Under the pieces are notes generated by a model, which saw nothing but the letters and a program-made list of their open reading frames with translations, was not told where the DNA came from and made no database searches. This document shows positions 14,323-20,189 of a DNA stretch of 64,000 nt, piece after piece. Source of the DNA: Candidatus Sumerlaeaceae bacterium. Lineage in GTDB: Bacteria > Sumerlaeota > Sumerlaeia > Sumerlaeales > Sumerlaeaceae. The number at the start of each line of letters is the position of its first letter. The first letter of the stretch is position 1. Location: the NCBI GenBank assembly GCA_026418615.1, contig JAOAAY010000003.1:1-64000 (forward strand), read 5' to 3'. The position numbers and the translations under genes were made by a program.

Positions 14323-15501
14323 TCACAGCAAATCCCGCACCCGAACCCATTCGCGATTGCGGGCACTAATCTCGATGGCTTCAAGGACTGCCTGAACCCG
14401 AAGACCGTCGTCCATATCCGGCGACGCAGGTTTCTTGGAAGCGAGCGCCTCGAGGAAGTCATACACGGCATTGACGAAGGTGTGTTCGTAACCGATGATA
14501 TGACCTGCAGGCCACCAAGCCTTGATGTACGGATGAGTGGCGTCCGTGACGAGGATGTCGCGAAAGCCTTGGCGCGCCGCCCCGTCTTTGAGCGACAGGA
14601 ATTGGAGTCGGTTCATGTCCTCGAAGTTGAAGCACAGGCCGCCCCGCGACCCGTAAATCTCAAATCCGTTGAAGTTCTTGCGACCGGTGGCAAAGCGGGT
14701 TGCCTCGAAAGTACCGACGGCGCCGTTGTCGAAACTGGCCAGCCATGCGGCAGCGTCATCCACGGTGACCTTGCCCATTTTTCGCCCCCGCGCGGCCTGC
14801 CTTCTGAGTCCGCTGCCGCTGTCGGCGGCCGGAAGCGGGCGTTCCCGGATGAATGTCCGGGTCATGCCGCAGACCTCATCAAGTTCACCGACGAGGAAGC
14901 GTGCCATGTCAATGATATGGCTTCCAATGTCACCCAGTGCGCCGCTGCCCGCCTGTTCGCGATCCAGCCTCCAAACCAGCGGGAATGCCGGATCCACAAT
15001 CCAATCCTGCAGATAGAATGCGCGGAAATGCCGGATCTCGCCGATTTCCCCTGCCCGGATGATTTCGCGCGCAAGGGCGACCGCGGGCACGCGCCGGTAG
15101 TTGAACATGACGAGCGATGGAACTCGCGCTTTGCGGACGGCAGCCGCCATTTCCTTGGCTTCGGCCAGCGTATTGGCGATGGGTTTTTCGCAGATGATGG
15201 CCTTGCCAGCGCGTGCGGCGGCCAAGACCTGCTCCTTGTGGGCCCAGCCGGGGCTGGCGATGTCTACGACATCGATGTCTGGGCGGGATATCAGTTTCAT
15301 CGCGTCCGTCTCCCAAGATTCCCAGCCATACCGCTCCGCGGCAGCCTTCACCGCGGCTTCGTTGCGTCCACAAATGGCTTTCATGACAGGCCGCAGGCGT
15401 AATTCCGGGAAAAACATGGCCACATCCTTGAAGGCGTGGCTGTGGGCCTTGCCCATGAAAGCGTAACCGATGAGACCAATGTTTACATGGGTTCTGCGCA
15501 T
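14323..15501 (-). CDS. Gfo/Idh/MocA family oxidoreductase
   Basis: VNIGLIGYAFMGKAHSHAF, IDVVDIASPGWAHKEQVLAAARAGKAIICEKPIANTLAEA. Confidence 0.93.
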   Translation of the reverse strand: MRRTHVNIGLIGYAFMGKAHSHAFKDVAMFFPELRLRPVMKAICGRNEAAVKAAAERYGWESWETDAMKLISRPDIDVVDIASPGWAHKEQVLAAARAGKAIICEKPIANTLAEAKEMAAAVRKARVPSLVMFNYRRVPAVALAREIIRAGEIGEIRHFRAFYLQDWIVDPAFPLVWRLDREQAGSGALGDIGSHIIDMARFLVGELDEVCGMTRTFIRERPLPAADSGSGLRRQAARGRKMGKVTVDDAAAWLASFDNGAVGTFEATRFATGRKNFNGFEIYGSRGGLCFNFEDMNRLQFLSLKDGAARQGFRDILVTDATHPYIKAWWPAGHIIGYEHTFVNAVYDFLEALASKKPASPDMDDGLRVQAVLEAIEISARNREWVRVRDLL

Positions 15502-16331: not shown

Positions 16332-19300
16332 GTGGATTTCGTTCATCTTCATGTGCATAGTCACTTCTCGCTGGAGGAGGGGGTTGCCCCTCCGGAGGCG
16401 CTTGTGATGCGCGCCCGCGAACTGGGCATGCGTGCGCTTGCCCTCACCGACCACAACTCGCTGGCGGGGGTGGTCGCGTTTTGCACGGCATGCCGGACGC
16501 ACGGCATCCGCCCTGTGATCGGGGCAGAACTGGATGTGTTGCCGTTTGAAACCAAGGTCACTTCCGCCCAACTATTCCGATTGGTTTTGCTTGCCGAAAA
16601 TGAGGCGGGTTACCGCAACCTCGTGCGCTTGGTGCAGCGCGCGCATACCGCCCCGGTGCGCGGCAATCCGGCCATTCGTCTTGATGACCTGAAGGCAGGC
16701 GCCAGCGGTCTGATTGTCCTGACCGGCGGCGAGCACAGCGAACTCTACCACCTCGTCGCGTCAGGGCGCGCGGCGGAGACGGAGACCCACATCACGGAAC
16801 TCGTGCGGATTTTCTCGCGCGAGAATGTCGTCTTCGAGGTCCAAAATTTCGGTGTTACAGGCGAGTCGCCCGTGGCGGGGCAGATCGTCCGGCTGGCCGA
16901 GTTTCTGTCCATGAGATGTGTGGCGACCAACGATGTCTGCTTTCTGTACCCTGAAGATTCCATCTGTTATGAGTTTTTGCGCCGTGACGCCCCGCCCTCG
17001 TTCCTGAGTTTCCTCGAGCGTCGCGATCCGTTGCGCCACCGCCATCTGGCCTCTCCCGCCGACATGATGCGCAAGTTCCAGCGCACGCCTCAGGTCATCC
17101 GCAGCACCGTGGATATCTCCGAGCGCTGCGGCTTCGTGCCGAATCTCGAGAAGAAGCGTTTCCCATCCCAGGATTTCGTACGCGGGTTCGATGCCGACTC
17201 CTACCTCTGGGATCTCACCTTCCGCGAAGCGCGTGCCCGCTTCACGGAACTCACCTCGGAGATGAAGAACCGGCTCAACGAAGAATTCGATTACCTGAAA
17301 AACGAAGGGTTGTCTAATAATATCCTGTTGCTTTGGAACATCGCGCAGTTTTGCCGCCGTTCGCGCATTGCACTCGGCGTGGGCCGCGGCAACACCATTT
17401 CGAGCCTGATAGCCCACATTTTGGGCATCACTCAGGTCAACCCATTGGATTACAAACTGCGTTTTCTGGGTTTTGAGGGCGAAACGCCTCAAGACCGTTG
17501 CCTGACGGTCGAAATCCCCTCCAGCCATGCCCGACGCCTGCATGAATTCCTGCGCGAAAACTTTGGCGCCAACTTTTGCAGTGCCGTGGGGCGTTGGTTG
17601 CCAGCCAGCAAGACATCACTGGCGCGCGAAATCTGCCAATGGTTTCATTTGCCTTTCACGCAGGTGGCGGCCCTCGTAGAGGAGTGGGACGATCGAGCGC
17701 CGCACGGAGAAGCGACGCTGGAGCGTTTCGTGCCGCACCGCGGCGATGGTGTGGCGCTCCCCAACCGCGATGTGGTGCGGTTCATGCTGGCACGGTTGCT
17801 GCCGCGCCCGCGCCAATTGGCATGCGCCGAACAGCAGTTTGCCATTTCCGGCGAGAATTTGAACGGACTGGTCCCGCGCGTGCCGGCGGAAGACGAACTC
17901 GTGACGCAGATGGATGCCGCAGCGTTAGATGGTTTCAACATCCCGCGGGTGCGCATTGACTCGAGTCCACTCCTCAATATCATTGACACCGCGGCCCGTT
18001 GGGTCCGCGAGCAGGAGCATGCCAAATTCGACCCGGAACGCATTCCGCCGGACGATGACGACACCTACAGCCTGCTCGCTCGCGGCCTCACGAACGGCAT
18101 AGATCCGTTTCACTCCATTACGATGAAATCCCTGCTGCGCGAGCACCGTCCACGCAACCTCATGGGGCTGCTCAAGTTGAAGGCCATGGAAAAAACGCCC
18201 GATGCCGACCGCGCCCCGGATGTCCGCGAACACCTGCCCGAATGTCTGCTTACCTACCGCTGCGCCTTCATCAAGGCGCACTATCCCATGAGTTTCATGA
18301 CCGCGCTGCTGACCCACTCGTATCCGAATCGCAAAAAGTTCACGGTCATCTTGCGCGAGGCCAAGCAGATGGGCATCCGGATCCTGCCGCCAGACATCAA
18401 CCGCAGTTTTTACGAGTTTTCGCTGGCCCCGCGTGCCATTCGCACCGGCCTGATGGTCGTCAGCGGACTCGGCGAGAAAGCCTATGCGGAAATCGAGCGC
18501 GTGCGGATGGGAGGCAATTTCAACAATTTGCTCGATCTCATCCGCCGCACGGATCCCCGGCTGGTGAACAACCGGGTTCTCGCCAATCTGGCCCGAACGG
18601 GCGCTCTCGATGTATTCAACCTCAAACGCTCGCAACTTCTGAGTATGATCGAGGATCAGGCCGATTTTGCGCGCAAGGATGGCGCGGCCCCGTCGCTCTT
18701 CGACGGACAGGATGACCTGGAGGGGCTGCCCGCGCTGGATGCTCCCGACATCCCGGAGTTGTCCGAGGGCGACATTATCCGCAACGAGATCGCCGCGGCC
18801 GGCTACTGCATTTCCTTTGACCAGTTACACTTTTACAAAGGCCTCATCCGTCAGTGCCGCGCCTTGTCGCCCTACGAATTGTCCGCTAAATATGTGGGAC
18901 GAGAGGTGCACCTCGCCGGCTTCATCGAGCATGCCGACTCGCGCAGCCCGCTCATTGATGAGACCGAACAGGTGCTGCTCGACATGGAGGGACGGGTCGT
19001 TGTCATGGCGCTCAAAGCCGCGAAACTTTACGAGGCCGCCCTCCAGGCGAACGCACCAGTGCTCGTCGGCGGAACAGTTCACCGTCGAAAGGATGAAGTG
19101 TACCTCAAGGCGCTCACGGCTTTCACCCTCCGGCAGGTCCAACAGATGAGCCGGCAGGTGCTCGAATTGACCTTGGATCTGAGCGGCGAGAACCTTCGCA
19201 CGGTTCGTCTCATCCGATCGCTTGTGCGCCAGTACCGCACCGGTGGCACAACGCTCCTGCGTATCGAGAATTTCGCCGGAAGCAGTTTCGGCCGCTGGTA

Positions 19301-19517
19301 CGCCGGGGCCATCTCGGGTGCCAAGGTCTTCTTCAGTCCGCCGTTTTATCAGGCTCTGAAACTGATCCTCCCGGAGGAACAGATGACCCTGACCGTGGCC
19401 GAGGACACGGACCCTGATCTCCTTCACGCTCTCTCTCCCTCGCGTTTCCCGCGGGCGGAAAAGCCGGGTTCCCCGCCGGAGCCGGAAGAGAATTCGTCCG
19501 TCATTGATGCGTATTAG
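16332..19517 (+). CDS. DNA polymerase III alpha subunit (DnaE) homologue, predicted catalytically inactive
   Basis: PHP domain (FVHLHVHSHFSLEEG, ALTDHNSLAGVVAF, ATNDVCFLYPED), GVGRGNTISSLIAHILGITQVNPLDYKLRF, LKAHYP/FMxALLT-type segment IKAHYPMSFMTALLT, GIRILPPDIN; PDxDxDF motif replaced by CLTVEIP and most of the fingers absent. Confidence 0.9.
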   Translation: MDFVHLHVHSHFSLEEGVAPPEALVMRARELGMRALALTDHNSLAGVVAFCTACRTHGIRPVIGAELDVLPFETKVTSAQLFRLVLLAENEAGYRNLVRLVQRAHTAPVRGNPAIRLDDLKAGASGLIVLTGGEHSELYHLVASGRAAETETHITELVRIFSRENVVFEVQNFGVTGESPVAGQIVRLAEFLSMRCVATNDVCFLYPEDSICYEFLRRDAPPSFLSFLERRDPLRHRHLASPADMMRKFQRTPQVIRSTVDISERCGFVPNLEKKRFPSQDFVRGFDADSYLWDLTFREARARFTELTSEMKNRLNEEFDYLKNEGLSNNILLLWNIAQFCRRSRIALGVGRGNTISSLIAHILGITQVNPLDYKLRFLGFEGETPQDRCLTVEIPSSHARRLHEFLRENFGANFCSAVGRWLPASKTSLAREICQWFHLPFTQVAALVEEWDDRAPHGEATLERFVPHRGDGVALPNRDVVRFMLARLLPRPRQLACAEQQFAISGENLNGLVPRVPAEDELVTQMDAAALDGFNIPRVRIDSSPLLNIIDTAARWVREQEHAKFDPERIPPDDDDTYSLLARGLTNGIDPFHSITMKSLLREHRPRNLMGLLKLKAMEKTPDADRAPDVREHLPECLLTYRCAFIKAHYPMSFMTALLTHSYPNRKKFTVILREAKQMGIRILPPDINRSFYEFSLAPRAIRTGLMVVSGLGEKAYAEIERVRMGGNFNNLLDLIRRTDPRLVNNRVLANLARTGALDVFNLKRSQLLSMIEDQADFARKDGAAPSLFDGQDDLEGLPALDAPDIPELSEGDIIRNEIAAAGYCISFDQLHFYKGLIRQCRALSPYELSAKYVGREVHLAGFIEHADSRSPLIDETEQVLLDMEGRVVVMALKAAKLYEAALQANAPVLVGGTVHRRKDEVYLKALTAFTLRQVQQMSRQVLELTLDLSGENLRTVRLIRSLVRQYRTGGTTLLRIENFAGSSFGRWYAGAISGAKVFFSPPFYQALKLILPEEQMTLTVAEDTDPDLLHALSPSRFPRAEKPGSPPEPEENSSVIDAY

Positions 19518-19556: not shown

Positions 19557-20189
19557 ATGAAAAGTGCCTTGCGCTTCGCGCTTGCCCTCGCGGCCCTGAC
19601 AGGTGTCTTTCCTGCCATGGCTAACGGACCCTACGCAACTTTCAAGACCTCGGAGGGCGAGTTCATTGTCGAACTCCTGCCCGAAAAAGCGCCCAAGACT
19701 GTGGAGAATTTTATCGGGCTCGCCAAGGGCACCAAAGTTTGGCAGCACCCCGGGACCAAACAGCAGATGGAAAACAAACCGCTGTACAACGGCACGGTTT
19801 TCCACCGTACCATCAAAGGCTTCATGATTCAGGGTGGTGATCCGCTCGGCACAGGGACGGGCAACCCCGGGTATCGCTTCGAGGACGAATTCAGCGATTT
19901 GAAGTTTGATGCCCCGGGCATTCTGGCGATGGCCAACAGCGGCCCCAACACGAACGGCTGTCAGTTCTTTGTGACCGTCGCCCCCACGCCACACCTCAAC
20001 AATCGCCATACAATCTTTGGAAAGGTTGTCAAGGGGATGGATGTGGTGCTGAAGATCGCTGACAAGCCCAGCGAACCGGGATCCGGCCGCGCGATCAATC
20101 CCGTCAAACTTGAGACCGTGACCATCTCCGACTCCATGCCCGGCTCCGCGCCGGTCAAGGCGGACAGCCCCACGACTGGCGCCCGGTAA
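19557..20189 (+). CDS. cyclophilin-type peptidyl-prolyl cis-trans isomerase, exported
   Basis: Signal peptide; FHRTIKGFMIQGGDPLGTGTGNPGYRFEDEF, MANSGPNTNGCQFFVTVAPTPHLNNRHTIFGKVV. Confidence 0.95.
   Translation: MKSALRFALALAALTGVFPAMANGPYATFKTSEGEFIVELLPEKAPKTVENFIGLAKGTKVWQHPGTKQQMENKPLYNGTVFHRTIKGFMIQGGDPLGTGTGNPGYRFEDEFSDLKFDAPGILAMANSGPNTNGCQFFVTVAPTPHLNNRHTIFGKVVKGMDVVLKIADKPSEPGSGRAINPVKLETVTISDSMPGSAPVKADSPTTGAR

Follow-up and report, generated by a model that had tools for sequence, protein, structure and literature searches.

A class-wide DnaE-type polymerase III alpha paralogue of Sumerlaeia that has lost its polymerase and proofreading sites

Why would a bacterium keep an intact gene for a DnaE-type polymerase III alpha subunit whose active sites appear to be gone? 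The question is raised by a 64-kb stretch of DNA (hereafter the window) from a Candidatus Sumerlaeota genome (G000) of the class Sumerlaeia, in which the original prediction, made from the letters alone, had placed an uninterrupted 1061-residue DnaE homologue with a dead palm. The homologue itself was borne out: the reading frame has a GTG start and is open over 1061 codons with no internal stops, and Pfam recognizes PHP, DNA_pol3_alpha and HHH_6 domains in its product. We refer to this gene and its relatives as pseudo-DnaE. The features of the locus, all on the forward strand, are as follows.

16332..19517, +: pseudo-DnaE gene, 1061 aa (P0001), from the open reading frame and its orthologues
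16344..16847, +: PHP domain, residues 5-172, with degenerate metal ligands HHEHERGDC, from Pfam and ligand alignment
17181..17225, +: family-specific motif RGFDADSYLWD, residues 284-298, from conservation in the family
17202..17939, +: palm/thumb region, Pfam DNA_pol3_alpha, residues 291-536
17496..17516, +: dead palm motif RCLTVEI (residues 389-395), which replaces PDxDxDF, from alignment
17952..17954, +: R541, which stands where E. coli has D555, the third catalytic Asp, from alignment
17973..18188, +: surviving first part of the finger domain, residues 548-619, Pfam profile positions 2-73 of 166
18192..18242, +: site of the gap corresponding to E. coli residues 644-751, from alignment
18372..18638, +: HHH_6 DNA-binding domain, residues 681-769, strongly conserved, from Pfam and conservation
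18693..18704, +: beta-clamp-binding-like motif SLFD (F790 = E. coli F924), from alignment and motif counts
18900..19124, +: OB-fold region, residues ~857-931, from beta-strands in the AF2 model and OB-fold structural matches
19143..19394, +: C-terminal domain (CTD), homologous to the DnaE1 CTD, residues ~938-1021, from hhalign (probability 94%, E 1.4e-7)
19557..20189, +: cyclophilin-type peptidyl-prolyl isomerase, a same-strand neighbor mainly in the taxonomic family of the source

PHP, DNA_pol3_alpha and HHH_6 occur in this order in 28 of 28 members, which identifies pseudo-DnaE as a DnaE homologue by descent, and its closest relatives of known structure, by sequence, are the Thermus and E. 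coli alpha subunits. The layout is of the DnaE1 type, with an internal clamp motif after the HHH domain, followed by OB-like strands (in the model) and the CTD. Within the family-specific motif, R284, G285 and D287 are retained in more than 90% of the family, and R284 and D287 differ in the DnaE1 of G000.

Alignment with E. coli DnaE showed that P0001 reads CLTVEIP where the E. coli protein reads PDFDVDF, and that the catalytic residues D401, D403 and D555 correspond to C390, T392 and R541. Both metal-binding palm aspartates are therefore replaced, as had been proposed. The suggestion that a third palm aspartate might survive did not hold, because D555 aligns with R541 and the aspartate of the nearby VRIDSSP lies two positions later and is unconserved in relatives. 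The expected gap of about 100 finger residues was confirmed: E. coli residues 644-751 (approximately 108 residues, including YQEQVM and RRAMGKK) lack an equivalent in at least 80% of family members, and the finger segment is absent from all members aligned. None of the 34 members carries the D401/D403/D555 triad.

The losses extend beyond the triad. Forty-nine residues that are near-invariant in active DnaE have been lost in at least 90% of the pseudo-DnaE family, among them R390, R396, D401, D403, D405, R411, H511 and K553, as well as D555, Y686, Q687, R709, K714 and K715; the lost palm and finger motifs surround the metal and nucleotide sites. In the polymerase core the ratio of near-invariant residues lost to kept was 42:7, compared with 2:8 beyond residue 760 (Fisher p = 1e-4), where only Y764 and T771 are lost and R853, R868, L882, G886, D889, R895, the clamp-motif F924 and E953 are kept. 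As the same losses were seen in all 34 relatives examined, they are not due to chance.

Precedent calls for care in reading such losses as inactivity: the archaeal PolB2 (Dpo2) was once called inactivated and was later shown to polymerize (PMC8764526). A polymerase that is still active with unusual catalytic residues might also draw on the acidic residue found at the D405 position in 20 of 34 members and at the D403 position in 13 of 34. Pseudo-DnaE differs from PolB2 in that all three acids and the fingers are missing; the three catalytic columns vary freely over the 34 members, with two acids at them in only one, and R390, R396, R709, K714 and K715 have gone together with the 108-residue finger segment. 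We regard continued polymerase activity as very improbable.

For the PHP site we took the nine-ligand motif HHDHEH[C/H]DH as the mark of an active domain, which is also the criterion applied in a 2026 survey (PMC12926913). The ligands read HHEHERGDC in P0001, compared with HHDHEHCDH in the DnaE1 of G000, and the full set was found in 0 of 34 members. Because the f2 and f11 members have moreover lost almost all ligands and those of f7 and f13 most of them, PHP catalysis is unlikely as the function shared by the family, and the PHP-based enzymatic role once envisaged is unsupported, no member having an intact site. A PHP-domain nuclease or phosphoesterase would have in its favor that the domain is recognizable in 28 of 28 members, that the best-preserved sites (G010 and G019) keep eight of nine ligands each, and that PolX proteins with a dead polymerase and a live PHP domain exist (PMC12926913). 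Set against the ligand losses, these points leave it improbable. That pseudo-DnaE is a former DnaE-type alpha subunit, predicted to be able neither to polymerize nor to proofread, is well supported by the alignments.

How widely the protein occurs was assessed with a family profile in 39 Sumerlaeia genomes, one genome of another class of the phylum and 346 genomes outside the phylum. Pseudo-DnaE was found in 36 of the 39 Sumerlaeia genomes, including all 20 of high quality (at least 90% complete); the three that lack a full match have completeness values of 66, 82 and 75%, and a C-terminal fragment is present in one of these, G018. The profile did not find it in G039, the sole genome of another class of the phylum, and gave no full-length match in the 346 genomes outside the phylum, a count that a very divergent relative could escape. 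The strongest matches outside the phylum end near profile position 620, as canonical DnaE does, and score at most 483 bits, compared with 575-1444 bits inside the class.

The family is monophyletic (SH-aLRT 100) and its sub-branches largely track the genome families; the best explanation is that pseudo-DnaE became established a single time, in the Sumerlaeia ancestor, with vertical inheritance from then on. In the best tree it sits on the branch between DnaE1 and DnaE2, and a position as sister to Sumerlaeota DnaE1 was not rejected (AU p = 0.12). The DnaE1-like CTD and the clamp motif favor an origin from a replicative alpha, and we infer that pseudo-DnaE was derived from such a subunit.

Pairwise dN/dS (NG86) could be measured for five pseudo-DnaE pairs. 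In four of these it ranged from 0.09 to 0.16 (G016/G022, 0.11; G021/G029, 0.10; G000/G005, 0.16; G034/G038, 0.09), and DnaE1 in the first three, which were matched, gave 0.08-0.12 (0.08, 0.09 and 0.12, respectively). For G026/G032 the ratio was raised in both genes (0.43 for pseudo-DnaE vs. 0.28 for DnaE1), probably because synonymous distance was underestimated. Values usually about 0.1 and close to those of DnaE1 indicate purifying selection, not decay. Divergence faster than that of DnaE1 (e.g., 46% vs. 77% identity between G001 and G007) is what a decaying pseudogene or an assembly artefact has in its favor; this reading is ruled out by full-length open frames in about 30 genomes from about 14 families, by dN/dS mostly near 0.1 and by the single origin, and we give it next to no weight. 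Both the death of the active sites and the conservation of the protein are well supported.

A search of G000 for another replicative alpha subunit found an active DnaE1 on contig C33, its PHP ligands and palm (PDIDIDF) intact. With catalytic residues and fingers lost class-wide, DnaE1 present beside it and dN/dS usually about 0.1, the original prediction of a non-polymerizing paralogue under constraint gains strong support. G000 also encodes a third, catalytic-looking C-family polymerase, DnaE-B (contig C54, PDIDVDF), which groups with DnaE2, has a patchy distribution and LexA boxes, and lacks the QxxLF motif. As a separate observation, a DnaE1 of Rokubacteria (L064:2592-7400) is 1602 aa long and perhaps contains an intein or other insert.

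Could pseudo-DnaE serve in mutagenesis or repair, as had also been proposed? A translesion-mutasome accessory, in the manner of ImuB, would be a dead polymerase that loads DnaE-B or a Y-family polymerase (PolY) onto the clamp. ImuB is itself a dead polymerase acting in the mutasome (PMC12926913), pseudo-DnaE retains a clamp motif, and in one genome, G005, the pseudo-DnaE gene and the PolY/DnaE-B operon converge. Such an accessory would nevertheless have to do without DnaE-B in most carriers, since only 12 of the 36 have it and 24 do not, and in G002, also a carrier, neither DnaE-B nor a Y-family polymerase was detected. Regulation points the same way. The palindrome AGAACNNNNGTTCT, of the Bacillus LexA-box type, is perfect upstream of lexA and DnaE-B in G000 and upstream of the PolY/DnaE-B cassette in G001, G004 and G005, and it occurs near DnaE-B in G016. 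None of the 34 regions upstream of pseudo-DnaE matches it at nine or more of its ten positions (0.32 expected), and the 64-kb window holds no site with one mismatch or fewer. PolY or DnaE-B adjoins pseudo-DnaE in G005 only, and Y-family co-location was otherwise not found in 33 context loci. With no LexA box, no shared neighborhood outside G005 and most carriers lacking DnaE-B, the mutagenesis or repair role lost its footing, and we consider the mutasome reading unlikely. A more specific candidate, pseudo-DnaE as the partner of DnaE-B, was ruled out by co-occurrence (12 of 36 carriers).

Some observations concern the SOS genes in their own right. DnaE-B loci were recorded at L005:8068-11814 (G000 contig C54), L117:3339-8105, L180, L181 and L183, and DnaE-B immediately follows a Y-family polymerase in G005 and comes a short distance after one in G001 and G004. 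An identical palindrome, AGAACATTTGTTCT, stands upstream of these DnaE-B loci and also near DnaE-B in G016. The lexA gene (L175, G000 contig C58) is preceded, at a distance of about 65 bases, by TAGAACGCGAGTTCTA, which fits autoregulation. PolY/DnaE-B and the palindrome are the probable SOS mutasome and LexA box of Sumerlaeota. On G005 contig C132 (L117:4536-11459), DnaE-B and pseudo-DnaE are convergent and 33 bases apart, an arrangement seen in that one genome.

The surroundings of the gene were otherwise uninformative. In the 33 context loci we found no conserved functional neighbor; what recurs is the cyclophilin and a few genes for membrane proteins or of unknown kind, mostly in members of one taxonomic family, and the cyclophilin-type isomerase is probably unrelated to pseudo-DnaE. 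A PADLOC search gave no match. A Gfo/Idh/MocA-type dehydrogenase lies at 14323-15501 (reverse strand) of the window, nearest to levoglucosan dehydrogenase and under the model cut-off; a dehydrogenase of this type also adjoins pseudo-DnaE in G005. The delta subunit (holA) was sought in G000 as a part that the pseudo-alpha might replace. PF06144 gave no match there and also misses several control genomes; TIGR01128 gave sub-threshold matches only, the best in a 740-aa frame on contig C26, and the controls show that delta models both miss and over-call.

Among the retained parts, the HHH domain is present in 28 of 28 members. At the site of the internal beta-clamp motif, [LMF]F[DEG] was found in 28 of 34 members, compared with 2.1 expected from shuffled linkers, and strict QxxLF in 8 of 34 (0.34 expected), the motif being weakened from strict QxxLF in the remaining 26. 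The CTD is homologous to that of DnaE1, the tau-contacting part of the subunit in other bacteria. When canonical DnaE rows were included in the alignment, the AF2 model (pLDDT 84, pTM 0.77) matched, along its entire length, Taq alpha in complex with DNA or tau (2hpi, 3e0d, 4iqj); a model from three pseudo-DnaE sequences without such rows reached pLDDT 46. As confidence was obtained only with canonical rows, the fold claim rests mainly on homology and the model adds little. The structural or clamp-handling role put forward earlier fits the conserved clamp motif, HHH, OB and CTD regions; its PHP-based part does not stand.

Strong constraint together with retained DNA- and clamp-binding parts suggests a structural job at the replication fork. 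Our preferred reading, for which the chances seem about even, is that pseudo-DnaE is a constitutive subunit without catalytic activity that binds the clamp and DNA, descends from a replicative alpha and acts beside DnaE1. It would sit on DNA and the sliding clamp through its HHH and OB regions and its xxLFD clamp motif, and its CTD may bind tau. Alongside DnaE1 it could hold the alpha position or the clamp, as a place-holder, or regulate polymerase access or exchange. The binding to clamp, DNA or tau, the partnership with DnaE1 and the regulatory role are to be taken as predictions. A non-catalytic role away from the fork, such as DNA-bound regulation, chromosome organization or repair scaffolding, is a lesser possibility, somewhat ahead of the mutasome reading; no replication genes are linked to pseudo-DnaE, and inactivated polymerases have been exapted elsewhere, as with poxvirus F12 (in the available part of PMC4304020), but it would leave the kept clamp-motif phenylalanine and the DnaE1-type CTD unexplained. 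Extending the fork-based reading, we tentatively suggest that Sumerlaeia might have a mixed Pol III, with the dead alpha paralogue serving next to the active DnaE1 as a dedicated subunit of the replisome and having clamp and tau contacts in common with it; this would be the first inactivated family among the C-family polymerases and a bacterial counterpart of the inactivated Pol epsilon half.

In the Y, X and B families, dead paralogues of polymerases are already known to do real work. No account of a dead DnaE family came up in literature searches. A 2013 survey of bacterial C-family polymerases (Timinskas et al.) discarded fragments without an intact active site. In its available part, the 2026 survey (PMC12926913) covers inactive members of the Y and X families as well as proofreading domains that are inactive, and mentions no inactive group of the C family; the survey never uses "Sumerlae". 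As far as the available text of these two large surveys of bacterial C-family polymerases goes, a class-wide dead C-family alpha is thus undescribed. One that is under constraint and not SOS-linked shows that selection can act on the alpha scaffold independently of synthesis and proofreading, and opens to experiment the question of whether a non-catalytic alpha can be of use to a replisome.

Among known systems, DnaE1 of E. coli and Thermus aquaticus shares with pseudo-DnaE the order PHP, palm/thumb, HHH, clamp motif, OB and CTD; pseudo-DnaE differs in lacking the catalytic aspartates, the second part of the fingers and an intact PHP site. The error-prone polymerases DnaE2/ImuC and DnaE2B are likewise C-family paralogues beside DnaE1. 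DnaE2 is catalytic, however, and the DnaE-B of Sumerlaeia belongs to the DnaE2 group, is patchy, carries LexA boxes and has no QxxLF, on each of which points pseudo-DnaE is the opposite. ImuB, an inactive Y-family member, is also a dead polymerase kept as an accessory protein (PMC12926913), whereas pseudo-DnaE is of another polymerase family, is not SOS-linked and occurs in nearly all genomes of its class. Archaeal PolB2 and the C-terminal half of Pol epsilon are, like pseudo-DnaE, inactivated replicative paralogues conserved across a clade (PMC2527604, PMC2669801); those belong to the B family, and in pseudo-DnaE the fingers have been deleted as well.
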